NCBI GenBank assembly: GCA_001768565.1
Contig: MEOE01000013.1
Span: 186,001 to 250,000, forward strand
Length of the DNA stretch: 64,000 nt
From: Bacteroidetes bacterium GWF2_33_16
Lineage (GTDB): Bacteria; Bacteroidota; Bacteroidia; Bacteroidales; UBA12077
Direction of reading: 5' to 3'
Below, one piece after another: positions 45,181-61,369 of the stretch. The notes beneath the pieces are model-generated. The model searched no databases. It saw nothing but the letters and a program-made list of their open reading frames with translations, and was not told the DNA's origin. Made by a program: the position numbers and the translations under genes. Each line of letters starts with the position of its first letter. The first letter of the stretch is position 1.

Positions 45181-45681
45181 CTAAACTGTTTGCTCCTTGT
45201 ACTTGTTCTGAAGCTCTAACATTGCCTTATGAAAATCGGGGAAGAGTTTCCATAAATCCTTATCACAACTTGTTAACTTATCGCACTCAATGCAAGCATC
45301 GTATCCATTTTCTATAGCACATGCTCTAACAGTACAGTGTTGAATTACTACTCCTGCAGGTTTTTCTGTATTTTTGCATTGCCAGCAAATGGTAGTCTCC
45401 GAATTAAAATCAACCCCAAACCGTTCTTTTATTTTCCATAACTCATACACTTCTTTCTTTTTTGCATCGCTATTTTCAACTGTTGCAACATAGAATTTGC
45501 AATCAGCAGGACAAGTATAACCACAAAAGTTAAGCTTTTTGGGATCAATCTTTTCATTACCAAATATATTACCCATACTATTAGCAGCGAATAGTTTTGA
45601 ACCCATCATTAAAGTGCAACAAGCTATTCCTGCTTGTGAACTTTTCTTTAAAAAATTACGTCGATCGATTTTTAATGCCAT
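45181..45681 (-). CDS. Tat-exported DUF3795-type cysteine-rich protein
   Basis: A 166-residue protein with a twin-arginine signal (DRRNFLKKSSQAG then a hydrophobic stretch) and about ten cysteines in the mature part: CGYTCPADC, CWQC, HCTVRACA and ACIECDKLTSCD. The pattern matches DUF3795, a family of unknown function with likely metal or iron-sulphur sites. A Tat signal implies that it is folded with cofactor before export, yet the Bacteroidota Tat motif is short here, so membrane anchoring is possible. It lies just after the hydrogenase-linked gene group. Confidence 0.78.
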   Translation of the reverse strand: MALKIDRRNFLKKSSQAGIACCTLMMGSKLFAANSMGNIFGNEKIDPKKLNFCGYTCPADCKFYVATVENSDAKKKEVYELWKIKERFGVDFNSETTICWQCKNTEKPAGVVIQHCTVRACAIENGYDACIECDKLTSCDKDLWKLFPDFHKAMLELQNKYKEQTV

Positions 45682-45799: not shown

Positions 45800-46060
45800 T
45801 TAATCCGCAAAAATCATCCGTTGTGATTGTATCCCACCAATTGTTTTGAGTTCTTTTTCAAGTTTGTCCATTTCGGCAACATCACCGGTAAGCTCCAATA
45901 TAATAAGTCCACTTGAGCTGCAAAGATTATCGGTAACTTCGTGTAATCCTAACCGGGTTTTAATAGAGCAACCAAATTTTGTAAGAAGCGCTTGAACTTT
46001 GCCAGCTTCCTTTTGCCTGTCGGTGATTAAAACACCAAGAATTCTTATTTCTTTTGCCAT
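45800..46060 (-). CDS. TM1266-type [FeFe]-hydrogenase-system regulator, copy 1
   Basis: An 86-residue ACT/NikR-C-like protein: ILGVLITDRQKEAGKVQALLTKF, SIKTRLGLHE and GLIILELTGDVAEMDKLEKEL. Family knowledge: the TM1266 family occurs beside [FeFe]-hydrogenase maturation genes and is proposed to regulate them, though without a DNA-binding domain of its own. It is downstream of the TonB receptor on the same strand. A paralogue lies at the other side of that receptor gene. Confidence 0.8.
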   Translation of the reverse strand: MAKEIRILGVLITDRQKEAGKVQALLTKFGCSIKTRLGLHEVTDNLCSSSGLIILELTGDVAEMDKLEKELKTIGGIQSQRMIFAD

Positions 46061-46188
46061 TTTTGGATTTTTAATAAACGAAGTAAGTTACTAAAAATTA
46101 TTATGTAAGTCAAAAAACAATTTCCAATTACAGTTGTTTTTAATTCTATAATCCTGTTTATCAATCCTTTATTTAATAGATTAATTTC

Positions 46189-48579
46189 CTAAAACAGAAC
46201 TTTCATTTTAACATAAATATTTCTTCCGGGTTCAATATCAATCGTTCCACGATTTGTAGCAAGATGATTGCGATATGCTCTGTCTCCAATATTTTCAATA
46301 CCACCAAAAACCTGAAATTTAGCAACTTTTGCATTAATCAAAGCTGAATGAATGGCTATATCGAAACGAGCAAAACCTTTTGTAGATATTTCTCCATCAG
46401 CCACTTTATTCTGATCTGCAAATCCAATAGCCATAATATCAATACCCAAATATTTAGGTAATTCATATCGTAATCCCAATCGTCCGTTTACAGGAGGAAT
46501 CAGTGGTAAACTTTTATCATTCTTTATATCCTGTCCACGAACAAAAGATCCTGTGCCAAAAGCGGTAAATGTTTTGTAAAAATTATATTCAAAATTCATA
46601 TCAATACCATACAACCTTGCCTGGTCAACATTTGAATTTATAAGAGCAGGAACCGTATCTATAACTCCAGTTGTCAATGTGTAAATAAACTCACCATTCT
46701 GTTCAACAATCATATCCGACAACCAGTTAACGAATCCATTTATTTTAAAATGGAAATTGGGTTTCCAGATTCTAACTCCTAAATCCATCGAGTAACCTTT
46801 TTCAGGATTAAGTCCCGGATCACCCAAACGAACCAAGTTGCCCAAGTCGATATACTTAAAACTCTCTTCGAGTGATGGAGCACGGAACGAACGACCTGCA
46901 TTAAAGCTGATATCCATATCCTTTGTTAGTTTATACAATGCTCCTAAATTAGCACTCCAAGAAATTTTGTATTCTTTGTTTTTTTCGAAAGTAATTCGCT
47001 GGTTTGCCGGATTGTCATTTCGTACATCATTTGTAATAATGTAATCCACATCAAATGCTTGTTCATTAGCAATACGAACACCATCAAAACGTCCACCAAG
47101 CAAAACTTTAAGTTTGTCATTTAGCATCCTTTGCTCATTCTGCAAATAAACACCTGCTGTACCAAAGGTAGCTTCTGGTATCGGCGTTTCGCCTCTAACA
47201 ATATTGTTTGTAGCGATAATACTTCCACTTGTATTTAATACATCAACACGAATATACTTTTCACGGCTTGTAACAATCTTCCTTTGCCATGTATCAACTC
47301 CTGCAATAAAGCTATTATTGGGAGCAAAGCTCCAGTCGGTCTGAATCTGCAATCCATCCGTAGTATGGTCACCAACTGGGGTAAAAAGTTCAGGTGTTGT
47401 AATACGAGTCGGAGTAACCACTGGCGAATTTGGAAGTAATTCAACATCACGAGAAATAAACTGGTGAAAATATTTAACATTTAATAGTTTAAAAGAGGAT
47501 GAAATACCTTCAATCTGATAATTGGCAGAAAAAAGTTCGCGTTTTGCATCAGTATAGGTTGCCTTTGAGGGTCCTGGGAATGCTGATCCACCCGGTATAC
47601 CAACATCATCTGCATCAAAAAGCTGGTAATTAACTTTAAATGTATGATTTTCGGATACTTTTAGTCCAGCCGAAAGCGAAATACTTTCATCAGAAAACTG
47701 ACTATTAGTAATTAATCCATCAGGTGTTTGAACATCATTTGCATCACGTAGCGAACCACTTAATCTTACAAACCATCTTTTTGAACCTGAGTTAAAAGTA
47801 AGTTTCCGTGTAAATAATTCATTTGATCCACTATAGCCAGAGTTAAAACTACCATTAAAATAAGTTGATGAGTTAAAATAACCTTCTTTTGAAATAACAT
47901 TTACAATACCACCCATTGCACCTGTTCCATATAATGAGGAAGAAGCACCTTTAATTACTTCAATTCGATCAATATCATCCACATCGAAGAAAGCCATTGA
48001 AGCCATAAGGTCGGTAGCTGTTTCAATGCGGTTTCCATCAACCATCATAACGATTCGTTGTTCGCCCAATCCGCGAATATTAACTCCTGTAGCCCACATT
48101 CCATCGCGACTTAACGCAACACCAGGCTCTTGCTGTAAAACATCAGATAAGGTAAAAGAAGATGCACGTTCAATCTGGTAGCGGTTTACAATTACAAGTG
48201 GGGCGGGTATTTCTTTAATCATCTGTTCGTGGCGTGTACTGCTAACAATAACCTCACCAAGAGTAATCATTTCTTTATCCAGCTTCAACTCTAGTTCCTG
48301 ATCTGATTGTATTAGAACTTTGTTCTCATTTCTTTTATAACCCAGATAAGAAACGATAAGATGATAACTTCCGTCTAAAATACCTTTTATTTGAAATTCA
48401 CCTGTAAGATTAGTTACAGAATTATAATGATAATTTGTTGCATCGTTGATTAGCTGAACATGAACACCATTTAGTTTTTCATTTGTTTGAGAATCTGCAA
48501 CAATACCTTTCAGTTCATAATTTTGCGAATATGCCTGAATCGAGATAAAAAGGAAAAATAATAGTTTAATAGTTTTCAT
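46189..48579 (-). CDS. TonB-dependent outer-membrane receptor
   Basis: A 796-residue receptor: signal peptide 1-19 (IQAYSQ), carboxypeptidase-regulatory-like domain 20-100, plug about 125-235 (LSDVLQQEPGVALSRDG, VNIRGLGEQRIVMMVDGNR, IEVIKGASSSLYGTGAMGG) and a 22-strand barrel with aromatic end (VKMKVLF). It is translationally coupled to the TM1266-like gene upstream by a 14-base overlap. The ligand is unknown. The divergent ABC importer suggests uptake of a small soluble compound or cofactor precursor, with the small regulators tying it to the hydrogenase. Confidence 0.88.
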   Translation of the reverse strand: MKTIKLLFFLFISIQAYSQNYELKGIVADSQTNEKLNGVHVQLINDATNYHYNSVTNLTGEFQIKGILDGSYHLIVSYLGYKRNENKVLIQSDQELELKLDKEMITLGEVIVSSTRHEQMIKEIPAPLVIVNRYQIERASSFTLSDVLQQEPGVALSRDGMWATGVNIRGLGEQRIVMMVDGNRIETATDLMASMAFFDVDDIDRIEVIKGASSSLYGTGAMGGIVNVISKEGYFNSSTYFNGSFNSGYSGSNELFTRKLTFNSGSKRWFVRLSGSLRDANDVQTPDGLITNSQFSDESISLSAGLKVSENHTFKVNYQLFDADDVGIPGGSAFPGPSKATYTDAKRELFSANYQIEGISSSFKLLNVKYFHQFISRDVELLPNSPVVTPTRITTPELFTPVGDHTTDGLQIQTDWSFAPNNSFIAGVDTWQRKIVTSREKYIRVDVLNTSGSIIATNNIVRGETPIPEATFGTAGVYLQNEQRMLNDKLKVLLGGRFDGVRIANEQAFDVDYIITNDVRNDNPANQRITFEKNKEYKISWSANLGALYKLTKDMDISFNAGRSFRAPSLEESFKYIDLGNLVRLGDPGLNPEKGYSMDLGVRIWKPNFHFKINGFVNWLSDMIVEQNGEFIYTLTTGVIDTVPALINSNVDQARLYGIDMNFEYNFYKTFTAFGTGSFVRGQDIKNDKSLPLIPPVNGRLGLRYELPKYLGIDIMAIGFADQNKVADGEISTKGFARFDIAIHSALINAKVAKFQVFGGIENIGDRAYRNHLATNRGTIDIEPGRNIYVKMKVLF

Positions 48580-48829
48580 CGTTTTTCTTGTTTTTAAGTA
48601 CTACCGATTTTACCTGTAAGCCTTTTAATCGACCCAACTGACCAGTTAAAGATCCAATTTCATCGGTGGTTCCTTCAAGAACAAGAGAAATAATACTTTG
48701 GCCATTACCACGTGGCAACCCCTGTCGGCCAATAATAATTACGGAATGTTTTGAGATAATGTCGTTCAGGATATGAACGCTTTCTTTACTCTCAATTAAT
48801 ATAAGTGCGGTTCCAATTCTCTTTTCCAT
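48566..48829 (-). CDS. TM1266-type [FeFe]-hydrogenase-system regulator, copy 2
   Basis: An 87-residue paralogue of copy 1: RIGTALILIESKESVHILNDI, IIGRQGLP and SIISLVLEGTTDEIGSLTGQL. It overlaps the start of the TonB receptor gene by 14 bases. It has an unusual, clear Shine-Dalgarno GGAGG (48841-48837) 7 bases before the ATG, and a leader of about 90 bases with a perfect hairpin. A TATCTTTG -7-like element is at 48933-48926. The two paralogues differ enough to have different partners or ligands. Confidence 0.78.
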   Translation of the reverse strand: MEKRIGTALILIESKESVHILNDIISKHSVIIIGRQGLPRGNGQSIISLVLEGTTDEIGSLTGQLGRLKGLQVKSVVLKNKKNDENY

Positions 48830-48836
48830 CAGATTT

Positions 48837-48887
48837 CCTCCGGATTAGATTTTTTCTTTAACCTTGAAATAGAATAACTTCTATTTC
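48837..48887 (-). promoter_or_regulatory. Structured 5' leader with Shine-Dalgarno and hairpin
   Basis: A perfect hairpin GAAATAGAA-TAAC-TTCTATTTC (48866-48887) precedes a strong GGAGG ribosome-binding site (48841-48837), rare in this organism. Such an arrangement could regulate translation of the TM1266-like and TonB receptor genes. I found no match to a known riboswitch. Confidence 0.4.
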
Positions 48888-49041
48888 TCAGAAAGAGTAA
48901 ATCAGGTTTACTGTTAATTATTTCACAAAGATAAAACCTTTTTATCAATTAAAAAACATGATCTAAAACAGATAGAAGTTTAAAGTTTAAAGTTCAGAGT
49001 TAGAATTTAAAAAATAGTAGTTTTGCTAAAAAGGAAATTGC

Positions 49042-50007
49042 ATGAAAAGATACTTGTTTGGAATATTGATTATTTTGCTTGTTTTAACAGGATGTAATTC
49101 AAAATCATCAAATAAAAAAATTACCATAGCCACATTAAAAGGGCCATCTGCAATGGGAATGATTAAAATGATTGATAGCCTGGCAAATACTAAAAATGCC
49201 CAAATCGAGATATTAATTTTTAATGAGCCCATCCAGGTACGAAAGCTAATGCTCGAGAATAAAGTTGATTTTGCTATTCTGCCAACAACTATGGGAGCTA
49301 TACTCTACAACAAAGGTTTACCTTATAAATTGGCAGCTATTCCAGTTTGGGGAACACTCTATTTATTTGGAACAGACTCAACTATTCTTACCTGGAATGA
49401 TTTAAAAGGAAAAAGGATTCACTTAATGGGAAAAGGAATGACTCCGGATGTTTTATTTAAATATCTTTTAATTCGAAATAATATTGATCCTGATAAAGAT
49501 GTAATATTAGATTACTCCTTCCCTACTCACATTGATCTTGCAAATGCAGTGGCAGCAGAGAGAGCAACTCTCGGAGTAATTTCGGAACCAATGGTAAGCC
49601 TGGTGATGCAAAAAAATAATAATGTATATTCTTTGTTTGATCTGAACGCCGAATGGCAAAAAATACATAGCAATATTCCAATTGCCCAAACAGCATTTCT
49701 TGTAAATTCAGAATTCGCTCAAAAAAATCCTCAATTTGTTGATCAACTATTGAATGAATATCAAAAATCGACAGAATGGGTAAATACAAATCCTGATTTA
49801 GCAGCTGATCTAATTGTAAAGTATTCTATTCTCCCCAATATTTCGGTTGCCAAAGAATCAATTCCTCGTTCAAACCTTAATTTTGTGAAGGCTGCAGAAT
49901 TGCGTACCGAAATAAATCATTATCTTGATGTTTTTTACGCTTTGAATCCAGATATTATTGGAGGCAAAATACCTGATGACGATTTTATACTTCGAAATAA
50001 AAAATAA
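49042..50007 (+). CDS. ABC transporter substrate-binding lipoprotein (SsuA/NMT1-like)
   Basis: A 321-residue periplasmic binding protein with a proper lipobox (LVLTGC, Cys18) and two lobes of the NMT1/SsuA type (FNEPIQVRKLMLENKVDFAILPTTMG, WNDLKGKRIHLMGKGMTPD, TLGVISEPM). It binds a small organic solute for the ABC importer encoded downstream. A TAGTTTTG sequence at 49018-49025 matches the -7 consensus. It is divergent from the TM1266/TonB receptor pair, which suggests one uptake pathway across both membranes. Related proteins bind sulphonates, pyrimidine precursors or nitrate; the ligand is unknown here. Confidence 0.83.
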   Translation: MKRYLFGILIILLVLTGCNSKSSNKKITIATLKGPSAMGMIKMIDSLANTKNAQIEILIFNEPIQVRKLMLENKVDFAILPTTMGAILYNKGLPYKLAAIPVWGTLYLFGTDSTILTWNDLKGKRIHLMGKGMTPDVLFKYLLIRNNIDPDKDVILDYSFPTHIDLANAVAAERATLGVISEPMVSLVMQKNNNVYSLFDLNAEWQKIHSNIPIAQTAFLVNSEFAQKNPQFVDQLLNEYQKSTEWVNTNPDLAADLIVKYSILPNISVAKESIPRSNLNFVKAAELRTEINHYLDVFYALNPDIIGGKIPDDDFILRNKK

Positions 50008-50080
50008 ACTAAGAAATTCGCACACAAAGTATATTTTTTTTACCTTTATATAACAATTCAAGTTACACCCCGAATATTTA

Positions 50081-50488
50081 ATGAGCACAGAAAATATAGA
50101 AACAAATAGCTTAAACTACGATTGGAGCAATAAAAGCATTCTGGTCGCAGATGATGAATATATTAATTTAATATTTATTGAAAAATCATTACAACCAACA
50201 AAAATCAAAATCTTTAAAGCACAAACCGGAGAGCAGGCAGTACAACTTTTTAAAGATAATCCTGAAATTAACCTTATTCTGATGGATATTCGTATGCCCG
50301 ATATGGATGGAGTTGAAGCTATTAAGCTAATACGCAAAGAAAACAGGACTGTACCAATTATTGCTTTTACCGCTTATGCTTTAACGAATAATGAAGTAAA
50401 TGCCTTAGATTATGGCTGCAATGACTATATTTCCAAACCATCGAAGCCACAATTCCTTATTCAAAAGATTAACGAATTCATAAAATAA
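50081..50488 (+). CDS. Stand-alone response-regulator receiver domain
   Basis: A 135-residue protein: a 17-residue leader and one CheY-like receiver domain (ILVADDEY, phospho-acceptor Asp69 in LILMDIRMPDMDG, FTAYAL, ISKPSKP). No output domain is present. It sits between the substrate-binding and permease genes of one importer, with gaps of 73 and 60 bases, which is unusual. It may be phosphorylated by the kinases encoded at 53659-57200. Confidence 0.85.
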   Translation: MSTENIETNSLNYDWSNKSILVADDEYINLIFIEKSLQPTKIKIFKAQTGEQAVQLFKDNPEINLILMDIRMPDMDGVEAIKLIRKENRTVPIIAFTAYALTNNEVNALDYGCNDYISKPSKPQFLIQKINEFIK

Positions 50489-50548
50489 CCTGCCCAAGTC
50501 AGAATTTATTTGTAATTTTTCGGTTTAATTAATTACTGACAAATTAGA

Positions 50549-51301
50549 ATGAATTTTACTCTTACAAAAAACAGGATTATTTCCATAATATCTGTAATAA
50601 TATTGCTCTTACTTTGGAAGCTTTTGTCTGTTTTCTATAATTCAGAATTCATTTTACCATCACCCGAATCAACACTTGTTTCTGTTTTTGAACTTTTTAC
50701 AGCTAAGGGTTTCATTTATATTGTCGGAGCTACAATTTTACGTGGAATTGTTGGATTTATACTGTCATTTATTCTTGGTATACTTCTGGGTATATTTGCA
50801 GGCATTAACAGTTCGTTCAATTCTTTCTTAAAACCATTATTGGTAACTATACGGTCTATTCCAGTAATTTCTATTATTCTTCTGGCACTTATTTGGTTTC
50901 AGGTTGATATGGTTCCTGTGTTTATTGCATTTTTAACCATGTTCCCTATTATTTGTACTAATGTAATTGAGGGTATTCGCAATGTAGATAAAGATTTGGT
51001 TGAAATGGCAAGGATTTATAAAATAGAACAAACAAAAATTGTTAAAGAGGTTTATTTACCTGCAATTACACCATTTATTTTTAGTGGGTCATCGAGTGCT
51101 ATGGGATTTGGATGGCGTGCAATAATTATAGGCGAAGTACTAAGCCAACCACAGTTTGGAATTGGCACTTTAATGCAAACAGCACAAACATACCTATTGG
51201 TAGACCAGGTAATTGCCTGGACAATTATTGCTGTTATTATTAGCTACCTTTTTGAGCTTGTTATTCGAAGAGTTGAACACAGAATTGTAATCTGGAAATA
51301 A
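50549..51301 (+). CDS. ABC transporter permease (SsuC/TauC-like)
   Basis: A 250-residue permease with six membrane helices and the EAA loop EMARIYKIEQTKIVKEVYLPAI in its usual position before the last helices. It belongs to the nitrate/sulphonate/taurine importer class and pairs with the ATPase encoded 2 bases downstream. The lipoprotein SBP lies two genes upstream. Confidence 0.88.
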   Translation: MNFTLTKNRIISIISVIILLLLWKLLSVFYNSEFILPSPESTLVSVFELFTAKGFIYIVGATILRGIVGFILSFILGILLGIFAGINSSFNSFLKPLLVTIRSIPVISIILLALIWFQVDMVPVFIAFLTMFPIICTNVIEGIRNVDKDLVEMARIYKIEQTKIVKEVYLPAITPFIFSGSSSAMGFGWRAIIIGEVLSQPQFGIGTLMQTAQTYLLVDQVIAWTIIAVIISYLFELVIRRVEHRIVIWK

Positions 51302-51303
51302 GT

Positions 51304-51999
51304 ATGAGCCTAAAAATTAATAATTTAAGCAAATCATTTCAGGATCATGTTATTTATAGCGATTTCTCAATTGAAATCCCGGAACATACAATTACATGTA
51401 TATTGGGGCCTTCGGGATGCGGCAAGACTACACTGTTAAATTTAATAAGCAAAACGATATTACCTGAGGCTGGACAATTTGTTGGAATCAACAACCATAT
51501 TGTTTCATACATTTTTCAAGAACCTCGATTACTGCCATGGAAAACAGTTCGCGAGAATATTGCTTTTGTTTTAAGCGAAATCGACAACACCAAAGAAACA
51601 GTTGACAAATATCTCCGGTTGGTTGAGCTTGAAAAATTTGCTGATTATTATCCTGCAAAGCTCAGCGGAGGAATGAAACAACGCGTTGCGATTGCACGCG
51701 CATTTGCTTATCCTTCGGATATTATTTTAATGGATGAACCACTTAAAACACTCGATTTTAAGCTGAAACAAAACCTGATGAACTCTTTCCGTAAGTTATG
51801 GCAGTTTGATAAGCGAACTGTTGTATTTGTAACGCACGAGGTTGATGAAGCTCTTATGCTTGGCAATGATATTTATGTTTTTAGCAAAGCCCCAGTAGAA
51901 ATAAAACAGAAATTCAGTATTAATGCCTCGTCTGAACGCATACTTGAAAGCATGGAAATGGTTGAATTAAAAAAGAGTATTTTACAAGTGATGGAGTGA
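51304..51999 (+). CDS. ABC transporter ATP-binding protein (SsuB/TauB-like)
   Basis: A 231-residue ATPase: Walker A GPSGCGKTTL at 35-44, Q-loop FQEPRLLPW, signature LSGGMKQR, Walker B IILMDEPLKTLD and switch histidine VTHEVDEAL. This is a full importer ATPase of the nitrate/sulphonate class. It ends 8 bases from the convergent ribF gene, with no obvious terminator between them. Confidence 0.9.
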   Translation: MSLKINNLSKSFQDHVIYSDFSIEIPEHTITCILGPSGCGKTTLLNLISKTILPEAGQFVGINNHIVSYIFQEPRLLPWKTVRENIAFVLSEIDNTKETVDKYLRLVELEKFADYYPAKLSGGMKQRVAIARAFAYPSDIILMDEPLKTLDFKLKQNLMNSFRKLWQFDKRTVVFVTHEVDEALMLGNDIYVFSKAPVEIKQKFSINASSERILESMEMVELKKSILQVME

Positions 52000-52007
52000 T
52001 TTAAATT

Positions 52008-52937
52008 TTAATAAATCAACTCCTCTATTTCATTTTTATCTTTTTGAAGCTGAAAATGCAGATCATCTGACTTACTAAGAATTAGTTCGCCCCGCATGCG
52101 TTTATGAAAAATTAAAGTAGCAAGTTTCCCTATTAAATTATGATTGGGTTCAAGATCAAATAAATGAACCTGTATTGAGGGCTGTGATTCATTTGTATTT
52201 TTAATATTGAGCATTCCTCTGTAATTTAGATTACCGCAAGTTAATGAAACAGCATAAACCCCTTCGAGAGGAACCAGTTTTATTTCTTCTTCAATAATCA
52301 TCTCTAATGTTGGGAATCCAACATCACGGCATTTCTGACTTCCTCCTTTGAGCTCGCCCATCATAATAAAATGATGATCGAGATATGCATTTGCACGCTG
52401 AATTCGACCCTCAGAAATCGCTTTACGTGTAATAGTCGAACTTACTGTTTCGTTTTCCAGGTCTTGTTCTGGTATTTCTTCTACTTCGAAGTTATGATCC
52501 CTGGTAAGTTTATAGAGATATGAATAATCCCCTTCCCTATTATGTCCAAAATGATGGTTAAAACCAACGATTATCTTTTTTGCATGTAGTTTACCTAATA
52601 AAATATCTTCAACAAATTCTTGCGATGTGGTTTGCGCAAATTCTTTGGTAAAGTTAATAATTATCAAATGATCGAGTCCTGCCTTTTCGAGCAGGTAAAT
52701 TTTCTCGCGCTGCGTATTAATCAGCTTAAGTGTTTTACCAGCGGTTTCGGGATATAAAACCAAGCGTGGATGTGGATGGAAGGTAATAAGAACAGATTCT
52801 CCATTTATTTCATGAGCCAGATTATTCAATCGTTTGATAATAACCTTATGACCAATATGAACTCCATCGAAAGAACCGGTTGTAACTACCGGATTTTTTA
52901 TGGTATAAAGATTATCGAAACTTCTATGAATCTGCAT
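52008..52937 (-). CDS. ribF: Bifunctional riboflavin kinase / FAD synthetase
   Basis: A 309-residue enzyme. The nucleotidyltransferase half has GSFDGVHIGHK at 21-31, LITFHPHPR and GFNHHFGHNREGD, and the kinase half at about 185-305 has GGSQKCRDVGFPTLEM and EGVYAV. It makes FMN and FAD from riboflavin. The location beside the flavin-dependent HydB and flavodoxin genes is suggestive but may be chance, since ribF is a housekeeping gene. Confidence 0.93.
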   Translation of the reverse strand: MQIHRSFDNLYTIKNPVVTTGSFDGVHIGHKVIIKRLNNLAHEINGESVLITFHPHPRLVLYPETAGKTLKLINTQREKIYLLEKAGLDHLIIINFTKEFAQTTSQEFVEDILLGKLHAKKIIVGFNHHFGHNREGDYSYLYKLTRDHNFEVEEIPEQDLENETVSSTITRKAISEGRIQRANAYLDHHFIMMGELKGGSQKCRDVGFPTLEMIIEEEIKLVPLEGVYAVSLTCGNLNYRGMLNIKNTNESQPSIQVHLFDLEPNHNLIGKLATLIFHKRMRGELILSKSDDLHFQLQKDKNEIEELIY

Positions 52938-53004: not shown

Positions 53005-53628
53005 TCATTTTTTTTGTTTTACAAAATAGGCCACTTTCTCAATTGATGTGATCATGTCGTATTCTTCGAGATGCACATTCTGGGGAACACTGAGTGGCGT
53101 TGAAGTATAATTTAAAATTCCCTTTATACCAGCATTTACCAATGTTTCTAATACTGAAACAGCATTTTCAGGAGGAACTGTCATTATGCCAATTCGAATA
53201 TCAAGCTCATTGACCAATTTATTTATTTCTGATATTGGATAACATTTAACACCAGCTATTACTCTGTTTGCTTTTTCAGGGTCGTTATCGAAAGTAGCAA
53301 CAATTCTCAATTTAGGCCTTTTGCCATTAAAATAGGTAGTTATAGCTTTTCCTAAGTTTCCCACTCCAATAATTGCAGCATTTATGCCTTCATCAGTATC
53401 AATTATCTTTGAGATAACATCGATCAAAGCTTTAACATCGTATCCTTTTTTAAGCGTTGTTGAATAGCCTATTAGCATAATATCGCGTCGTACCTGAACT
53501 GCAGTAAAATTGTGCAAATTTGCCAATTCGTGCGAATAGATATGAGTTTTTCCTTTTGCCAGGCAATTTAAAAGTGTCCTGCGGTATTCACTCAACCTTC
53601 CAATGGTTTTTTCAGGAAGTTTATTCAT
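53005..53628 (-). CDS. rex: Redox-sensing transcriptional repressor Rex
   Basis: A 207-residue protein: winged helix at 5-60 (RLSEYRRTLL, ELANLHNFTAVQVRRDI) and a Rossmann domain with IGVGNLGKA at 87-95 and acidic Asp114, which selects NADH. Rex releases DNA when the NADH/NAD+ ratio rises, and so derepresses fermentative and hydrogenase genes. It sits next to the hydrogenase island, but no canonical TTGTGAA-type Rex site was found in the 61370-61644 promoter region by eye. Confidence 0.93.
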   Translation of the reverse strand: MNKLPEKTIGRLSEYRRTLLNCLAKGKTHIYSHELANLHNFTAVQVRRDIMLIGYSTTLKKGYDVKALIDVISKIIDTDEGINAAIIGVGNLGKAITTYFNGKRPKLRIVATFDNDPEKANRVIAGVKCYPISEINKLVNELDIRIGIMTVPPENAVSVLETLVNAGIKGILNYTSTPLSVPQNVHLEEYDMITSIEKVAYFVKQKK

Positions 53629-53658: not shown

Positions 53659-54789
53659 TTATTTTGGCAATTCAACTGTAAAAGTACTTCCCCTATCAGG
53701 TTCACTTTCAATGTGTATATCGCCATTATACAAATCGACAACTCTCTTTACGATAGGCAAACCCAGTCCACTGCCTGAAATATTTCTTGTTTGTTCATTC
53801 TTTACTCTATAAAACTCATTAAACAATTGGTCCTTTTCTTCATTATTTAATCCTATTCCAGAGTCCTTAATGCAAATGATTATCTTTTCGTTTTCGCTTT
53901 TCATATTAATATCAACGCTTCCACCCTCTTTATTGTACTTAACAGCATTCGATATTAAGTTATTAAAAATGATCTCCAGATCGTCTGGATCAGCATTCAT
54001 AGTAACCTCATCATCATCGGTTAACGAAAACTTAATATCTTTCTGAATAGCATAAGGAAGTATTGCCTCTATAGCATACTGAGCAACATCTTTAATCTTT
54101 AATAATTGAAACTTATCTGTTTTCTTTTCGAACTTAATTTTTGTAAGATCTAATAAATCCATAATAAGATTTCGCATACCTTTAATGCGCTGTAGTGAAC
54201 GTTCAATCATTTGTTCATAATCCTCAATTCGGCTTCCAGCTTGTTTCTCCTGCATAATTCTTAAATACCCTTCAATCGCGTTTAATGGAGCTTTTAGCTC
54301 ATGAGATAAAACTGACAAAAATTGATGTCGTATTTCTTTGCCATCTTGTTTCAGCTTCTTCGTTACTCCACGTAAAAACAGATGTTTCGACACGTTTTCG
54401 AGCGATGACTTAAGTTCTTGTGGTGTAAATGGCTTTGGAATAAAATCATATGCACCCTGACTAGTAGCTTTAACAGCTAATTCAAGCGATGCATACGATG
54501 TAATCATCATCACAATGATTTCGGGATTATTCTTATTAATAAATTCGAGAACATCGGTACCCTGTATACCAGGTAATTTATTATCGAGGAGTACAATATC
54601 AATATGTTTATTTTTGATCTCTTTGATGGCTTCCTCACCTGTTCCTACTTCAATTACCTGAAAACCAATATCAGAATCCATAAATGGAAAACTAACCGTA
54701 AAATTATTCAGTATCCTGCTTACTCCGGAACGGATTCCGGGCTCATCATCAACAACCATTACCACCAAACTTTTCACCTTATTTTCCAT
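53659..54789 (-). CDS. Receiver-histidine kinase hybrid
   Basis: A 376-residue protein with an N-terminal receiver domain (Asp69 in VLLDNKLPG) and a C-terminal histidine kinase: His163 in VLSHELKAPLNAIEGYL, N box NLISNAVKYNKEGG, DSGIGLN, SGSGLGLPIV. No membrane segment is present. It starts 2 bases after the stop of a receiver-only gene, which in turn follows the hydrogenase-like kinase gene. The three probably form one phosphorelay or signalling complex sensing redox state. Confidence 0.88.
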   Translation of the reverse strand: MENKVKSLVVMVVDDEPGIRSGVSRILNNFTVSFPFMDSDIGFQVIEVGTGEEAIKEIKNKHIDIVLLDNKLPGIQGTDVLEFINKNNPEIIVMMITSYASLELAVKATSQGAYDFIPKPFTPQELKSSLENVSKHLFLRGVTKKLKQDGKEIRHQFLSVLSHELKAPLNAIEGYLRIMQEKQAGSRIEDYEQMIERSLQRIKGMRNLIMDLLDLTKIKFEKKTDKFQLLKIKDVAQYAIEAILPYAIQKDIKFSLTDDDEVTMNADPDDLEIIFNNLISNAVKYNKEGGSVDINMKSENEKIIICIKDSGIGLNNEEKDQLFNEFYRVKNEQTRNISGSGLGLPIVKRVVDLYNGDIHIESEPDRGSTFTVELPK

Positions 54790-54791
54790 GG

Positions 54792-55187
54792 TTAAATTTT
54801 AAGCAATTTATTAATTTCTTTGTGTAATTGATCTTTTCTTATTCCTTTTTCGAGATATAAGTCAGCTTTTATCCATTGTTTGTCAGCTGTGGTATTTATT
54901 CCGAAAGAATAACCTGTTTCAGATGCTACGGCTGTTGCCAGAATTATTGGTACATCTGGATATTTACGTTTCATTTTAAAACAAAGTACAAAACCACTGT
55001 CATCTTTTTCCATCATAAGATCAAAAATGGCAAGGTCGGGTTTGGTACTTTCTATAATATACTCAGCCTCTCTCTGACTAGTAGCTGTTATTACCTCAAA
55101 TCCAAAACTTTCTACAAACATTTTCATCTGAAAAAGATAATCAGAATCATCGTCAGCAATTAGTACTAATTTTTTATTTTGTGCCAT
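54792..55187 (-). CDS. Stand-alone receiver-domain response regulator
   Basis: A 131-residue CheY-like protein: IADDDSD at 10-16, Asp56 in LAIFDLMMEKDD, and a KADLYLEKGI end. There is no output domain. It lies between the hydrogenase-like kinase gene (18 bases) and the hybrid kinase gene (2 bases). The residues after Asp56 (LMMEKDDSG) resemble receivers of Fe-hydrogenase-linked signalling loci. Confidence 0.85.
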   Translation of the reverse strand: MAQNKKLVLIADDDSDYLFQMKMFVESFGFEVITATSQREAEYIIESTKPDLAIFDLMMEKDDSGFVLCFKMKRKYPDVPIILATAVASETGYSFGINTTADKQWIKADLYLEKGIRKDQLHKEINKLLKI

Positions 55188-55205: not shown

Positions 55206-57200
55206 TTATCTCATTCTTGGGATTTCTATTCTAAAACTTGTTCCAGTTGGGCCTTTTAATGCATCGGCATTCGACTCAAGGTCAATTTTTCCTTTATGCA
55301 TTTTAACTATTCCGTAAGCTGTTGCTAAACCAAGGCCTGTACCTTTTCCAATACCTTTTGTGGTAAAAAATGGCTCAAAAATCTTTTCCTTATCTTCATC
55401 CTTTATGCCCAAACCAGTATCTGAAATCGTGAAAATCACTTCGTTTCCGGTATCTTCCAGAATTACATTTAGCTCGCCTCCATTATGCATTGCCTCAACG
55501 GAGTTTTTAATCAGGTTGGCAATTACCTGTATCATTTGTTCCTGATCGAGCCAGGCTATCTTGTTTTTTAACTTTTCTGAATTAATCGTTGCTTTTACGT
55601 TTGGAGGAATAATTACAGCCTCGAGGCACTGTTCTGATAATTTAATAATATCCACCTCGGTAGAATTTACCTGGTTTTTACGGGCAAAATTTAATAATCC
55701 ACCTACAATCTTCTTGCATCGGTTAGATTGTTCTACAATAAGTTTTAAATCCTTGTACAGATCTGAATCTTTAGGTGTTTCTTCGAGTAAAATATTAGCA
55801 TACATAATAACAACACCTAGCGGATTATTAAGTTCGTGAGCAATACCTGCTGAAAGCTGACCCATGCTTGCCATTTTTTCTGATTGCTTAAGAGCCTGCT
55901 GTGTTGATGATAATTTATCGTTGGTAACTGCCAATTCAGAAATAGAATTATGCAATTTCTCAATAGTATAGGGCAAACACATTTCAGTTTCTGCTAATCC
56001 CTGTGCAATAGCGATAGCGTGTTCTTCGCAGCTATCATAACCACAAGCACCACAGTTTAAATGATCTTTAGATTCTTTTTTACCCATTGATTCCAGAATA
56101 AGTCTTATATCATTCCAATCTGGAAACTCAAGAACTCTTCGTTTAGCTTCAAAAGAAACCGACAAGTTAACTTCGCTATACTCGTCGATGTATTTCTGCC
56201 ATTCCTTTTCGTTTAATGAATAGAGCTTTTTGTGCACATAATTATTTACTAAAGTACGTCTTGCATACTGACGTCCACCACTTGACATACCGGGCCCCAT
56301 GATACAACCTTCGCAGCCAAGTAATTCAAGATGCTGGTTTTTAATCAGTCCATCTTCAAATTCTTTTATCGCTTCCTGAAAATCATTGCGCCCTTCAGCA
56401 ACAATAATATCACCAACCAAAATATCATCTGTTATTCCTGCAGTCTGTAACAATCCTCTGCTTACCGGGAAAATAGCACCTTTCCCACCTAATGGTGGAT
56501 CAAATTCAGTTGCTTGAACTGATTTTTGAGTAATATTTAATTTGGTAAATATCTCGCGTAGTTCAGTGAATGTAATCATCTCGTCAACCTCATCCGATTC
56601 GGCTTTTTTAGCCACGCAAGGACCAATAAAAACTATATTTATATTTTCACCATACTTTTTTCTCATAACCCTTGACATAGCTACCATTGGGGAAACAAGT
56701 GGAGCCAGATCTTTTACCAGTGCCGGATGATAATGTTGTATATAGTTAACTATTGCCGGACAATCTGATGAAATATAGCATTTTTCTGTTCCCTGATCGA
56801 TAAGTTTTCGGTATTTCTTTGCAACTAAATCGGCTCCAAATGAAACTTCAGAAACGATGTCAAAGCCAATGGCTCGAATCATTGAAACAAATATCTTGTA
56901 ATTGGCAACTTCTTTAAACTCAGCAGGAAAACTCGGAGCCACAATTGCTATATTTTTCTTTCCCGACTTTAATAGTTCAAACATCTTTTCGGTGGTATTT
57001 ATATATACTTTTGCTCCCTGACTACAAACTTTAGTGCAATTACCACAACCTATGCAACGCTCATTTAATACTTCGGCCTGACCATTAATAATTTTTATAG
57101 CCTTAGCAGGACATTCGCGAACACAGGTAAAACAAACCCTACATCGGTTTTTCAGTGTATAAACCAGGTATCTGTTTTTATTTGATGATGACTCTTCCAT
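55206..57200 (-). CDS. [FeFe]-hydrogenase-like histidine kinase (redox or H2 sensor)
   Basis: A 664-residue cytoplasmic sensor. Two ferredoxin motifs come first (Cys20/23/26/30 and 49/52/55/59), then a hydrogenase large-subunit-like domain to about 345, an iron-sulphur domain with Cys383/386/391/408 (CGACGYDSC...MCLPY), a short coiled linker and a kinase with His455 ([11 protein letters not shown]), [18 protein letters not shown] and [11 protein letters not shown]. The active-site loops are degenerate: TSCCPGW is SSDCPAI (Cys147 kept, proton-relay Cys lost), MPCTAKK is GPCVAKK (Cys195), and ACPGGC is GCEGC (Cys296, Cys299). So a [4Fe-4S] site is likely but the H-cluster di-iron site is doubtful. 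Confidence 0.87.
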
Positions 57201-57214
57201 TACCAGTTCAATTT

Positions 57215-58936
57215 TTATAACAATACATCGCGTTCACTATATCGAGTATGCAATAGGCTATTTGCCTTTACGCTTAGTGGTTCTTCAAGAAATTTTTCAT
57301 ACAATCGGATGATAGCAGGATTCTTATGAGCGACTTTCAATCCATCCTTTTCATCCAAATCATACACCGCTTTTGCTCTGCCTTTCATTACTTTTTCATC
57401 GGAACAAAAAGGCTGTCCACCTCCATTTATGCAACCACCAGGGCAAGCCATTATCTCAATATAATGTAAGTCTTTTCGACCATTCCTGATTTCTTCCAAC
57501 AAATTTTTTGCATTTTTTAATCCACTCACAACTGCTATTCCCAAATTTAAATCACCAATCTGGATATTCATTTCTCTTCTTTCTTTTGTACCCCGTAGCT
57601 TGGTAATCTTGTATTCTGGCATCTCCTTTTTTGAATATAAAAAGTGAGTAGTTCTAATTATTGCTTCGGCCATTCCGCCTGAAACAGAAACAAGCTTACC
57701 GGCCGAACTTCTTGTATTAAAAGGATTATCAGCCATCTCTTCCTGAAGCTGCTGAACATCGATCCCACATAAATTAATAAGCTTAACCAATTCACGCGAA
57801 GTAAGCACGAGATCTATATCTGAAATTCCTTTATGTGTCATTTCTTCGCGTTGAGCCTCGAATTTCTTGGCAGTGCAGGGCATAATTGAAACGGAGAATA
57901 TCTTTTCAGGAGATATTTTTTCTTCCTGTGCAAAATAACCTTTAATCAGAGTCCCCATCATTTGCTGAGCTGATTTGCACGTGGACACATTTTCCATTAA
58001 GTCAAAATGCGATTGTTCCATATATTTAATCCAACCAGGACAACAACTGCTTATTAATGGCAAACCGTTATCGTATTTTATGCGATCAAGCAATTCTGCA
58101 GATTGTTCATAAATCAATAAATCAGAACCAAATGTTGTATCAAAAACCTTAAAGAATCCTATTTTTCGAAGGGCAGCATTAATTAATCCACTAATATCTT
58201 TGCCAGAACGAATACCAAGATCTTCTGCAACAGAAATAGCAATGGTGGGTGAATATTGAACAATAACTTTACTGTCTTTCTTGTTAAGCATCTCGAGCAA
58301 CACATCAAAATTAATTTTTTCGTGCAATGCACCAGTAGGGCAAACCATAATACACTGACCACAATGAACACAATTTGAGAAATTCAAATCCTTATTCATT
58401 GTTGTGGCAATGGCAGTCTTATTACCTCTTTTTATAAAATCAAATGTCGAAACAGACTGAATTTCTTCACAAACACGAACACAACGACCACAAAGAACAC
58501 ATTTTGCCGGATCGTGAACAATTCCCGGACTCGATTGATCTAGATTTGCCTTTGACTTATTTCCTGAAATTCTTCGTTCACGAATATTAAGTTCAACAGC
58601 TAAATCCTGTAGTTCGCAGTTTCCATTTCGTACACAATAAAGGCAATCATCAGGATGATTTGAAAGGAGCAACTCAACCAGCATTTTACGTGATCGAATG
58701 ACTCTAGGAGAATGGGTTTTAATTTTAAGCGACTCTTCGACATGAAAGGAACATGATGGAATTAATCCCGGTTTGCCTTCTATCTCAACAACACATAAAC
58801 GACATGCGCCAGTTGGAGAAAATCCTTCCATACGGCATAGTGTTGGAACCTTAATTCCATTTCGGTTTAATGTATCAAGAATAGTCTCTCCCTCTTTTGC
58901 CTGAATTTGCTGATTATTTACTTCTATATTTACCAT
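57215..58936 (-). CDS. hydA: NAD(H)-linked [FeFe]-hydrogenase catalytic subunit
   Basis: A 573-residue HndD/HydA-type protein. A [2Fe-2S] domain is at 30-65 (CRMEGFSPTGACRLC), a His-Cys cluster site at 94-107 (HPDDCLYCVRNGNC), two [4Fe-4S] motifs at 146-156 and 189-199, and the H-cluster loops are complete: ISSCCPGW with Cys298/299, IMPCTAKKFE with Cys353, and MACPGGCINGGGQPF with Cys498/502. All proton-relay and cluster ligands are intact, so it should be catalytically active. It forms a trimer with the HydB and HydC products; such trimers can use NADH and reduced ferredoxin together (electron confurcation). Confidence 0.93.
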   Translation of the reverse strand: MVNIEVNNQQIQAKEGETILDTLNRNGIKVPTLCRMEGFSPTGACRLCVVEIEGKPGLIPSCSFHVEESLKIKTHSPRVIRSRKMLVELLLSNHPDDCLYCVRNGNCELQDLAVELNIRERRISGNKSKANLDQSSPGIVHDPAKCVLCGRCVRVCEEIQSVSTFDFIKRGNKTAIATTMNKDLNFSNCVHCGQCIMVCPTGALHEKINFDVLLEMLNKKDSKVIVQYSPTIAISVAEDLGIRSGKDISGLINAALRKIGFFKVFDTTFGSDLLIYEQSAELLDRIKYDNGLPLISSCCPGWIKYMEQSHFDLMENVSTCKSAQQMMGTLIKGYFAQEEKISPEKIFSVSIMPCTAKKFEAQREEMTHKGISDIDLVLTSRELVKLINLCGIDVQQLQEEMADNPFNTRSSAGKLVSVSGGMAEAIIRTTHFLYSKKEMPEYKITKLRGTKERREMNIQIGDLNLGIAVVSGLKNAKNLLEEIRNGRKDLHYIEIMACPGGCINGGGQPFCSDEKVMKGRAKAVYDLDEKDGLKVAHKNPAIIRLYEKFLEEPLSVKANSLLHTRYSERDVLL

Positions 58937-58955: not shown

Positions 58956-60908
58956 TTATTTACTGATTATTGCACTAAACTTACAGGTTTCGTAACATAC
59001 ACCGCAGCCAATACATTTATCCTGTACAATAAAATGAGCATATTTAGGCGTTCCAAAAATAGCATTCGTTGGGCATTTTTTTGCACATAATGTACATCCA
59101 GTGCATGCATCCACACTAATTTCAAAGGTTCTCAGTTCCTGGCATACTCCAGCAGAACAATTTCTATCGAAAATATGTTCTTCGTATTCATCACGAAACC
59201 ATTTTAGTGTGGTAAGAACTGGATTAGCAGCTTTTTTACCTAACCCACACATCGATGTATCTTTAATCACTTCGGCAAGGCTTTCGAGTTGCATAACGCC
59301 TTTGAATCGTTGAAGGGTGGTATATCCAACATCATCCTTCGGTCTTTTACTAATATTCTCGAGTATTTCGTACATTCGACGTGTTCCTTCCCTGCAAGGA
59401 ATGCAAACACCGCAGCTCTCCTTTTGTAGGAAATTCATGAAATACTTTACGGTATCAATAATACAGTTGTCTTCATCGAGCACCACCATGCCTGCCGATC
59501 CAAGCGATGCTCCGGTGAGCATTATCGAATCAAAATCTACTAGGGTATCGATATGGTCTTCGGTTAATGAGCCACCTGATGGACCACCAATATGCACTGC
59601 TTTAAATTTTCTGTTATTCGGAACACCTCCAGCTATGCGGAAAATAATATCACGAAGCTTGGTACCCATTTCCACTTCTACTAACCCTGCATATTGTATT
59701 TTACCACTGATAGAAAAAACTTTAGTCCCCTTACTTTCGGCTGTACCAATTGATGTAAACCATTGAGCACCTTTATCTATGATTGCAGGAACATTAACTA
59801 TTGTTTCGACATTATTAACAACCGTAGGTTGACCAAATAAACCTTTTGTAGCAGGATATGGGGGTTTGGAATGAGGCCGACCTCTTTTGCCTTCAATACT
59901 GGCAATAAGAGCTGTTTCTTCGCCACAAACATAAGCACCAGCACCTTTCTTAACAATAATATCGAGCGAATAACCACTATTTAGAATATCATGACCAAGT
60001 AATCCAAATTCTTTGGCTTGCTGAATTGCATTTGTGATTCGCTGAATAGCAAGATCGTATTCCCACTCAATATAAATATAAGCTTTTCTTGCACCAATAG
60101 CATAGGCCGAAATAGCAATACCTTCAACAACTTTATGAGGATCGCTCTCGATTAAGAGACGTTCCATAAATGCACCCGGATCACTTTCTCCTGCATTGCA
60201 GATTAAATACTTTTGATCTGCTGGAGTTTGTAACGCAATTCTCCACTTTTTACCAGTATAAAATCCTTCTCCGCCTCTTCCTCGAAGCTTACTTTCGTCA
60301 ATAATAGTACAAACATCTTCGTGAGTGCAATGTTTGAGTACTTTTACCAGTGACTTATAACCTCCATAAGCAATATATTCATATATCGAATTAGGATCAA
60401 TTATACCACAGTTTTTAAGAATAATCCTCTGCTGAGAGCTGAAATAAGCTATTTCGTCAATATAAGGTGTATTCTCATAAGGTTCGTGCATTTTATTACG
60501 GAACTGGCCAAAAACATTTTCTTCGGCAATATAATTATTAAAGTTACCATCCAGTATGGCAATTATATTGTCTTCGCCAACATTTTTATATAACAACCTG
60601 GTTTTTCCTGGCAATTGTATTGATACAAATGTTTCGAGAGAGCAAATACCAATACATCCAACCTCTATAACCTTAGCTTTTATTTCGCGTTCTTTGAGGT
60701 AATTCTCAATAAATAAAGTAAGATTTTTTGTTCCTGAAATAATGGAAGAAGAATTCTGACTTACAGCAATAACCGGAAAATCAACCTTATCGCGCTTAAT
60801 ATATGTCAGTTTTTCGGCAACTTCTTTTGAATAAGTATTGGATTCATTAAGAAGTATATCATTAATAATGAATTCCTTTGTGGGTTGTATATTCTTATCG
60901 AAAATCAT
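58956..60908 (-). CDS. hydB: NADH-binding hydrogenase subunit (NuoF-like)
   Basis: A 650-residue flavoprotein. The core has GRGGEGFYTGKKW (NADH) and GAGAYVCGEETALIASIEGK (FMN), an SLBB segment, the N3 cluster site SCGVCIPCREG with a later cysteine, and two C-terminal ferredoxin motifs (CTGCTLCAKKCP, CIGCGVCYETCK). The N-terminal thioredoxin-like domain, which usually holds a [2Fe-2S] cluster with four cysteines, keeps only Cys85 and Cys89. The usual first pair is replaced by serines in AVSQNSSSI near residue 50. Its ATG overlaps the hydC stop by 4 bases. Confidence 0.92.
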   Translation of the reverse strand: MIFDKNIQPTKEFIINDILLNESNTYSKEVAEKLTYIKRDKVDFPVIAVSQNSSSIISGTKNLTLFIENYLKEREIKAKVIEVGCIGICSLETFVSIQLPGKTRLLYKNVGEDNIIAILDGNFNNYIAEENVFGQFRNKMHEPYENTPYIDEIAYFSSQQRIILKNCGIIDPNSIYEYIAYGGYKSLVKVLKHCTHEDVCTIIDESKLRGRGGEGFYTGKKWRIALQTPADQKYLICNAGESDPGAFMERLLIESDPHKVVEGIAISAYAIGARKAYIYIEWEYDLAIQRITNAIQQAKEFGLLGHDILNSGYSLDIIVKKGAGAYVCGEETALIASIEGKRGRPHSKPPYPATKGLFGQPTVVNNVETIVNVPAIIDKGAQWFTSIGTAESKGTKVFSISGKIQYAGLVEVEMGTKLRDIIFRIAGGVPNNRKFKAVHIGGPSGGSLTEDHIDTLVDFDSIMLTGASLGSAGMVVLDEDNCIIDTVKYFMNFLQKESCGVCIPCREGTRRMYEILENISKRPKDDVGYTTLQRFKGVMQLESLAEVIKDTSMCGLGKKAANPVLTTLKWFRDEYEEHIFDRNCSAGVCQELRTFEISVDACTGCTLCAKKCPTNAIFGTPKYAHFIVQDKCIGCGVCYETCKFSAIISK

Positions 60909-61369
60909 GAGTTCTCAATTTGCATGTAAAAATTCACAATTTCATGTACTTTCTCAACAGTCATTGATGTAAAATATTTGTCATTAACAGCCATCACGGG
61001 ACCCTTGCCACAGCCACTTAAACATTCGGTTTCTTCAATACTGAATAAGCCATTCTTTGTAACCTCGCCACTTTTAATACCTAATTTTTTATATAGCTCT
61101 TTAATAATTATTGCATTAGAATGAATATGGCAGGACGTTCCGTTACAAATACTAATATGGTGCTTTCCTTTAGGTTCGAATCGAAACTGATTATAAAAGG
61201 TTGCTAATCCATAAATTTTACTTGTTGGCATTTGCAGGTGACTTCCTACTTTTATGAGAGCTTCTTTTGAAATAAAACCAAGGTTTTCCTGTATTTCCTG
61301 CAAAATAGGGATCAGATTATCCGTTTGAACAAAAGGGTATTTTTGTAGTATTGAATCAATATCGGGCAT
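60905..61369 (-). CDS. hydC: [2Fe-2S] hydrogenase subunit (NuoE-like)
   Basis: A 154-residue NuoE-type thioredoxin-like protein with all four ligands: Cys75 and Cys80 (CNGTSCH) and Cys116 and Cys120 (CLSGCGKGP). It is first in the hydC-hydB-hydA operon and overlaps hydB by 4 bases. A perfect TATATTTG -7 element is at 61419-61412 on the minus strand, giving a leader of about 36 bases, but without a clear -33 partner. Confidence 0.92.
   Translation of the reverse strand: MPDIDSILQKYPFVQTDNLIPILQEIQENLGFISKEALIKVGSHLQMPTSKIYGLATFYNQFRFEPKGKHHISICNGTSCHIHSNAIIIKELYKKLGIKSGEVTKNGLFSIEETECLSGCGKGPVMAVNDKYFTSMTVEKVHEIVNFYMQIENS

Follow-up and report, generated by a model that had tools for sequence, protein, structure and literature searches.

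Our comparative data suggest that a five-gene system in the genome of Bacteroidetes bacterium GWF2_33_16 is carried almost only by [FeFe]-hydrogenase bacteria. It comprises a TM1266-family protein and a TonB-dependent receptor, encoded divergently from a lipoprotein substrate-binding protein (SBP) and the permease and ATPase of an ATP-binding cassette (ABC) importer. The system lies in a stretch of 64,000 nucleotides of contig MEOE01000013.1 (positions 186,001 to 250,000), which is referred to as the window. The link between this module and hydrogenase is strong, and the importer is inversely linked to the maturase genes hydE, hydF and hydG, strongly in a sample of genomes from the same order and more weakly in a second set of carriers. 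A tentative explanation is that receptor and importer scavenge the [2Fe] subcluster of the H-cluster or a late precursor of it; in this scheme the cargo, its inward transport and the part assigned to TM1266 are inferred. A passage of a 2018 review states that every microorganism found to have an [FeFe]-hydrogenase also has HydE, HydF and HydG, and calls all of them essential for the maturation of the catalytic subunit HydA; the three proteins build and insert the [2Fe] unit, and the [4Fe-4S] part comes from the general machinery (PMC6212873).

A Conserved Module of Receptor and Importer Genes

In the window, the TM1266 gene (48566..48829, reverse strand) lies upstream of the receptor gene (46189..48579, reverse strand), which encodes an N-terminal CarboxypepD_reg domain, and its open reading frame (ORF) overlaps the receptor start by 14 bp on the same strand. 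Across a divergent intergenic region (48830..49041), the SBP gene of the NMT1/SsuA class (49042..50007) opens the importer unit, which continues with a CheY-like single-domain response regulator (50081..50488), the permease (50549..51301) and the ATPase (51304..51999), all on the forward strand. A preliminary description of this DNA had read the same set, with TM1266 overlapping the receptor start and a complete divergent importer, and all of its ORFs are indeed present at the coordinates given; the CheY-like regulator inside the importer unit had gone unremarked in it.

A phylum-wide sample of 198 genomes returned a match (E ≤ 1e-15) in the window's own genome alone (1/198), and sampling was therefore moved to the order level. 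In an order sample of 198 genomes, the SBP search gave 24 matches at E ≤ 1e-8, of which the 12 at E ≤ 3e-36 were used; the other 12 (E 8e-15 to 4e-10) reside in frames of 574–656 amino acids and were dropped as a different protein. Seven of the retained SBPs, counting the window's own, form a close group (S1: G000, G294, G269, G200, G219, G333 and G240 in our numbering), and the other five, with 29–40% identity, a distant one (S2: G257, G363, G302, G293 and G318). Permease and ATPase genes are present in all six close S1 relatives, and TM1266 and the receptor adjoin the importer, or lie one gene off, in five of these six. The G240 contig with the SBP stops at that gene, and the TM1266–receptor pair, with a receptor 41% identical to that of the window, is found on a separate contig. 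There (locus L229, G240:C176, 4420–10781) the pair is followed by hypF, a hypA-like gene just under its cut-off and hypB, which are NiFe hydrogenase maturation genes; this adjacency occurs in one genome. The S2 genome G293 carries TM1266 divergent from a receptor that is 35% identical to the window's.

A species scan (one genome per species, 84,980 species) yielded 110 relatives, the best 80 of which were kept; all 80 are titled Bacteroidetes, Bacteroidota or subgroups thereof. Sequence reaching 4 kb or more upstream of the SBP is available for 58 relatives, and of these TM1266 is present in 50, the receptor in 50 and both in 49; one locus has TM1266 alone (L099), another the receptor alone (L145), and seven have neither (L102, L107, L111, L136, L160, L161 and L165). 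Permease and ATPase accompany the SBP in all 67 loci with at least 2.2 kb of downstream sequence. Where TM1266 and receptor occur together (n = 57), they lie on the same strand within 100 bp in 56 loci and overlap, taking the earliest start codon, in 40. A CheY-like receiver between SBP and permease recurs in 15 of the 80 relatives, mainly near the window's clade. Both genomes of family f62 encode, between SBP and TM1266, a secreted repeat protein of 844 amino acids that is BNR/VPS10-like by eye (L028, 10501–13035; L029, 7546–10080). Homologues of the 22 query proteins excepted, no gene family recurs beside the module in more than nine of the 80 loci.

The TM1266–receptor and SBP–permease–ATPase units are a conserved module, usually apart from hydrogenase genes. 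A hyd gene is seen in 17 of the 80 relatives' loci, which span 3 to 21 kb of sequence, and in 13 of the 43 that reach 15 kb or more; physical linkage with hydrogenase genes is therefore mostly confined to the window's clade. The preliminary description had named scattering of receptor and importer, relative to TM1266 and to hydrogenase genes in other genomes, as the point to check: they do stay with TM1266 (49/58), but not, in most loci, with hyd genes.

Association with HydA and Absence of the Maturases

HydA (PF02906, E ≤ 1e-30) is encoded in 132 of the 198 genomes of the order sample and HydF (E ≤ 1e-40) in 118, and all 12 SBP-bearing genomes have HydA. HydG and HydE were searched in the 18 genomes with HydA and no HydF; six of them have HydG or HydE (G206, G214, G251, G292, G323 and G345) and were not counted as maturase-less. 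All three maturases are absent from 12 of the 132 HydA-bearing genomes, namely all five of S2, the five S1 members from genera other than the window's, G247 and G351. The SBP occurs in 10 of these 12 versus two of the 120 other HydA-bearing genomes (G000 and G294; Fisher p = 1e-11), and for S1 SBPs alone the figures are 5/12 versus 2/120 (p = 5e-5). Note that these tests treat genomes as independent and ignore relatedness. Among genomes that are at least 90% complete, the SBP is found in 10 of 11 maturase-less genomes versus two of 104 others. Weak HydG matches in four S2 genomes, at 167–190 of 312 bits well under the cut-off, were taken to be ThiH-like. The preliminary description had not foreseen the association of the importer with the absence of hydEFG.

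Close relatives show the same contrast. Within one genus, G200 has the SBP and no maturases, whereas G319 has the maturases and no SBP; within families, G269 versus G373 and G293 versus G394 differ in the same way, such that all three informative pairs agree (the maturases of G394 are fragmented, with HydE under its cut-off, and G373 holds one of the dropped weak SBP matches). Two further pairs carry no information, as G351 in G240 versus G351 has HydA with neither maturases nor SBP, and G199 in G318 versus G199 has no HydA.

A second set comprises 50 SBP genomes from the 80 loci, the remaining 30 being mostly short contigs, second loci of the same genome or genomes already in S1; the data include near-copies (L161/L164; L156 and G200). 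HydA is found in 48 of these 50, and no maturase in 23, of which 21 have HydA (21 of the 48 HydA-bearing carriers). One of the carriers is an isolate, Mariniphaga anaerophila DSM 26910 (5.0 Mb), with two HydA matches and no maturase found. The pattern of cofactor scavenging, HydA without HydE, HydF or HydG, is hence present in 10/12 and 21/50 SBP genomes. When mapped on a tree of 62 SBPs, the presence of HydG requires 11 changes; that of the complete maturase set likewise requires 11 on the best tree, six of which are forced by well-supported branches. This is a quick gene tree and not a species tree, and several long branches leave parts of it unsure.

The preliminary description had proposed a hydrogenase-linked uptake system, which is borne out by the presence of HydA in 12/12 and 48/50 SBP genomes and by the sister species G294, where the receptor sits between TM1266 and the maturase genes (order TM1266-receptor-hydG-hydF-hydE-CPF_0552). 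In the window's genome, hydG-hydF-hydE is located on a different contig from the importer.

Integrity of HydA in Maturase-Less Genomes

Judged from its sequence, HydA in maturase-less genomes is under functional constraint. An alignment of 53 HydA ORFs, one per locus, includes all 10 SBP-bearing genomes of the order sample that lack maturases, and 12 of the 21 such genomes with HydA in the second set. The motif C.GGC is kept in 53/53 and PC.A[KR] in 52/53, the exception being one row of the maturase-bearing G294, which reads MSC. The first motif varies (TSCCP, SSCCP, TSCSP), and G240 has, besides a TSCCP copy, SSACP in two loci that overlap. In the window's HydA (row L077), the motifs SSCCPGW, MPCTAKK and CPGGC are intact. 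TSCSPGW, with Ser for the second Cys, was considered as a sign of an inactive HydA, a doubt met by the same motif in PDB 7q4v ('Iron hydrogenase HydA1' in the structure table), which we take to be A. woodii HydA1. The ratio of nonsynonymous to synonymous substitution rates (dN/dS) in four HydA pairs from maturase-less genomes is 0.037, 0.058, 0.028 and 0.024, in line with purifying selection; the last two pairs have dS > 1, and a fifth pair was saturated.

Families and Predicted Folds of the Module Proteins

The importer is of the NMT1/SsuA type, with a lipobox SBP (PF09084, 37.1 bits, cut-off 20.5), a permease (PF00528, BPD_transp_1; 74.1 bits, cut-off 26.4) and an ATPase (PF00005, ABC_tran; 100.1 bits, cut-off 25) in one unit. 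The lipobox Cys18 of the SBP is invariant across 65 aligned rows. Among the matches listed, no equivalog cut-off for a known substrate is reached by SBP, permease or ATPase: the Sao ABC transporter models for SaoA and SaoP (NF040729, 166.8/360 bits; NF040733, 138.6/295 bits) and the aliphatic sulfonate model for SsuA (TIGR01728, SBP 57.6/163.5 bits) are all missed. The receptor matches both the Plug (PF07715, 87.2 bits, cut-off 23.9) and the beta-barrel domain (PF00593, 130 bits, cut-off 27) of TonB-dependent receptors, and falls under the cut-offs of the heme/haemoglobin receptor model TIGR01785 (205.6/316.85 bits) and the B12 receptor model TIGR01779 for BtuB (128.9/599.7 bits). The predicted model of the SBP has a predicted local distance difference test score (pLDDT) of 94.6; its nearest solved structure is 3hn0 from Parabacteroides distasonis (Z 34), followed by SsuA, PqqT, CmpA/NrtA and the formyl-pyrimidine (thiamin-precursor) binder 3ix1 (Z 22–27). 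For the AlphaFold model of the receptor (pLDDT 82.7), BtuB, YncD, Cir, ChuA and OprC are near-tied as matches (Z 34–37).

Two TM1266 regulators had been thought to bracket the receptor; the family assignment holds for one of them. The protein at 48566–48829 is a true TM1266 (TIGR03959, 76.5 bits, cut-off 60.8; PF21699, 70.1 bits, cut-off 27) and matches PDB 2nzc (E 2e-9). The other, encoded 128 bp after the receptor gene (45800..46060, reverse strand), belongs to the related but separate CPF_0552 subfamily (NF052672, 103.8 bits, cut-off 85); it stays under the TM1266 cut-offs (TIGR03959, 24.9 versus 60.8; PF21699, 22.2 versus 27), and BLASTP of the two proteins gives no alignment. TIGR03959 bears 'putative regulator' in its family name. 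CPF_0552 occurs in 11 of the 80 relatives, with hydG in the same locus in 10 of those 11. Tandem CPF_0552 pairs stand beside HydG in eight loci (L091, L094, L095, L097, L098, L099, L153 and L157), and the window and L090 each have one CPF_0552 gene next to the receptor and no HydG there.

TM1266 matches (E ≤ 1e-6) were found in 60 of the 198 order genomes, 48 of them above the cut-off; all seven S1 genomes and G293 are included. In the best 30 TM1266 loci of the order sample, HydG is adjacent in 26, the receptor in two (G240 and G333) and neither in two; TM1266 stands beside the receptor in importer genomes. As HydG adjoins TM1266 in 26 of 30 loci, the importer genes appear to flank TM1266 at the usual place of hydG. 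Rex and RibF precede TM1266 in some of these 30 loci, and RibF just before TM1266 is also found in importer-less genomes.

Explanations for the Pattern

The explanation that we tentatively favour is uptake of the [2Fe] unit. The [2Fe] subcluster, or a late precursor, would be released by other cells and cross the outer membrane through the TonB receptor. The lipoprotein SBP would then bind this compound in the periplasm, and the ABC transporter would bring it into the cytoplasm for insertion into apo-HydA, by way of HydF in genomes that retain this protein and directly in those without it. Inside the cell, TM1266 may be a sensor or handler of the cofactor, be it home-made (TM1266-hydG) or imported (TM1266-receptor). 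For makers, the window's species among them, the importer would be a supplement, whereas takers, having lost hydEFG, would depend on import. The preliminary description had thought of import of a cofactor precursor; this is still the best-fitting reading, with a cargo that is deduced from the pattern of genes. Excerpts of the literature report that synthetic [2Fe] mimics mature HydA both with and without HydF (PMC10421094), and because HydF is dispensable there, the [2Fe] unit alone could bypass all three maturases. More doubtful is the wider proposition that, thanks to natural uptake of the [2Fe] unit, an organometallic iron-CO-CN compound, [FeFe]-hydrogenases operate in many Bacteroidales in the absence of HydE, HydF and HydG, and that the cofactor is thereby a public good shared within anoxic communities. 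Other Bacteroidales keep their maturases, since Bacteroides thetaiotaomicron, according to part of one study, has hydGEF, which is down-regulated under iron limitation (PMC10434189).

Several observations weigh against uptake of the [2Fe] unit. None of the five S2 SBPs, which make up five of the 12 in the order sample, lies beside TM1266, and in S2 a fused permease–ATPase protein follows the SBP in three genomes, while in the other two no permease or ATPase was seen adjacent to it. G247 and G351 have HydA with neither maturases nor SBP; G351, which is 78% complete, belongs to the same family as the carrier G240. Many genomes are metagenome bins, and since hydG, hydF and hydE may lie in one cluster, a single gap in an assembly is enough to lose them together. 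In the second set, for which completeness is not reported, the full maturase set is present in 15 of the 50 carriers, and others have partial sets (HydF only, n = 7; HydE only, n = 3; HydG only, n = 1; HydE and HydG, n = 1). If the [2Fe] unit is imported, partial loss sparing HydF is expected and HydE-only genomes are not, so the latter are a poor fit to import of a finished unit. The HydE-only carriers are G420, G424 and G435, with HydE above its cut-off and no HydF or HydG found. G408 and G425 carry the SBP, and neither HydA nor any maturase was found in them (completeness not reported). The predicted folds of SBP and receptor do not point to any single ligand. To our knowledge, a free [2Fe] precursor in nature is undocumented. 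A stricter version, in which the importer replaces hydEFG, is ruled out by the 15 carriers with all three maturases, among them Draconibacterium orientale, whose complete genome holds the importer and the full set.

These 15 carriers would also fit an importer for an ordinary nutrient (an iron chelate, riboflavin, a thiamin precursor or a sulfonate), the loss of hydEFG then having another cause. The fold class of the SBP binds sulfonates, nitrate, thiamin precursors and pyrroloquinoline quinone (PQQ), the top NCBIfam models of the receptor are for heme/haemoglobin, albeit under the cut-off, and RibF adjoins the importer. We nonetheless regard this as unlikely: an ordinary nutrient does not replace maturases, yet SBP and maturase loss coincide in the order sample and within one genus. 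RibF stands beside TM1266 without the importer as well, and a riboflavin importer, which the neighbouring RibF had brought to mind, was dropped as the favoured reading on that ground.

It is quite unlikely that the H-cluster is built by an unrecognised pathway to which the importer supplies an ingredient, e.g., a CO/CN-iron compound or a bridge precursor. Carriers with HydE only, HydF only, HydG only or HydE plus HydG would suit such a pathway, as would the TM1266-receptor pair of G240 that adjoins hypF-hypA-hypB, and the title of a 2011 paper announces an active [FeFe]-hydrogenase in Synechocystis without additional maturation proteins. However, the hyp adjacency is found in one genome only, no new gene family recurs beside the module, and no new maturase stood out beside hydABC in four maturase-less genomes, which were read by eye without a search. 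A sampling effect, in which maturases were missed in fragmentary bins and anaerobic hydrogenase-bearing Bacteroidales share both traits by descent, is very improbable: although many genomes are metagenome bins, three clustered genes can go missing together and the traits cluster on the SBP tree, the ten cases of the order sample are 92–99% complete with contamination of at most 2%, only two of 120 HydA-bearing genomes without SBP lack all three maturases, the isolate M. anaerophila DSM 26910 has the same pattern, and the contrasts within genus and within family agree.

Gene Neighbourhood and a Candidate Rex Site

Beyond the importer lies a block of reverse-strand genes, convergent with the importer ATPase from RibF to hydC. 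It holds a RibF-like flavin adenine dinucleotide synthetase (52008..52937) and a Rex-like redox repressor (53005..53628), both presumed from their sequences, followed by a response regulator-histidine kinase hybrid (53659..54789) and a CheY-like response regulator (54792..55187), both by eye. Next come an Fe-hydrogenase domain fused to a histidine kinase, a putative H2-sensing kinase (55206..57200), HydA, the group A [FeFe] hydrogenase catalytic subunit (57215..58936), and what we take to be the HydB (NuoF-like; 58956..60908) and HydC (NuoE-like; 60905..61369) subunits. A further Fe-hydrogenase-domain protein, a ferredoxin-hydrogenase, is located at 61923–63782; H2 sensing is possible for it, as for the protein at 55206–57200. 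On the other side, a DUF3795 protein with a signal-like N-terminus (45181–45681) lies downstream of CPF_0552. Rfam gave no match at gathering thresholds in the window, and ARAGORN found no tRNA there.

Joint control by the locus-encoded Rex is plausible. An imperfect palindrome, TTGTTAAnnnnTTAACAA, which to us resembles Rex sites, recurs upstream of TM1266: of 60 regions, 26 hold a copy that agrees at 12 or more of the 14 fixed positions, versus 0.5 expected. This comparison is indicative, as TTGTTAAnnnnTTAACAA was chosen after the data had been viewed, the expectation comes from shuffles of base content only and the rows are related. The window's copy at 48911–48928, CTGTTAATTATTTCACAA, matches at 12 of the 14 fixed positions, and two other places in the window hold single matches as strong. 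A weaker match (11/14) lies at 61446, upstream of hydC, and is equalled at no fewer than 11 other places in the window. An earlier candidate Rex pattern, TTGTGAAnnnnTTCACAA, was weaker than TTGTTAAnnnnTTAACAA.

Known Systems and Significance

Gram-negative bacteria usually take up scarce cofactors through a TonB receptor paired with an ABC importer. In B12 uptake, BtuB-BtuFCD is such a pair for a costly organometallic cofactor, used by makers and non-makers. The module resembles it in this pairing and in the predicted receptor fold (Z 37), but its importer is of the SsuA/NMT1 type and its receptor misses the B12 model cut-off. SsuABC, TauABC and thiamin-precursor importers share the class of SBP, permease and ATPase, whereas here these are paired with a TonB receptor and TM1266. 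PQQ, which serves periplasmic enzymes, offers a further parallel: in fold, PqqT resembles the predicted SBP (Z 26–27), and YncD, presumably the same as PqqU, the predicted receptor (Z 36). As described in part of one source, PQQ scavengers have retained an enzyme that needs the cofactor, lack the genes for PQQ synthesis and rely on the dedicated TonB receptor PqqU and the periplasmic PqqT (PMC12124388). The module is alike in the kept enzyme, the missing biosynthesis genes and the receptor; however, PQQ is organic, while the cargo proposed here would be organometallic and bound for the cytoplasm. In artificial maturation, apo-HydA is likewise activated by [2Fe] from outside without maturases, according to excerpts of two sources (PMC10421094, PMC6212873), yet as a laboratory procedure and not by a natural transport route as proposed here. 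Our non-exhaustive search of the open-licence literature found no description of natural uptake of H-cluster parts.

We know of no importer of this kind in Giardia, which, unlike the carriers, is a eukaryote. It is alike in having a hydrogenase without HydE, HydF and HydG, as stated in a passage of one source (PMC5874029), and another notes in passing that some, not all, eukaryotes with [FeFe]-hydrogenase have these maturases (PMC3785491). Eukaryotes such as Giardia are known exceptions to the statement of the 2018 review, as its excerpt stands (PMC6212873); contrary to that statement, a number of bacterial genomes, too, keep a constrained HydA without maturases, and in the order sample the importer marks most of these. 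If the cargo is the [2Fe] unit or its precursor, the H-cluster would join B12 and PQQ as a scavenged cofactor, and maturation of HydA without maturases could be tested in a cultured isolate. TM1266 would gain a candidate role, and the biotechnological feeding of [2Fe] compounds to cells would gain a possible natural transporter.

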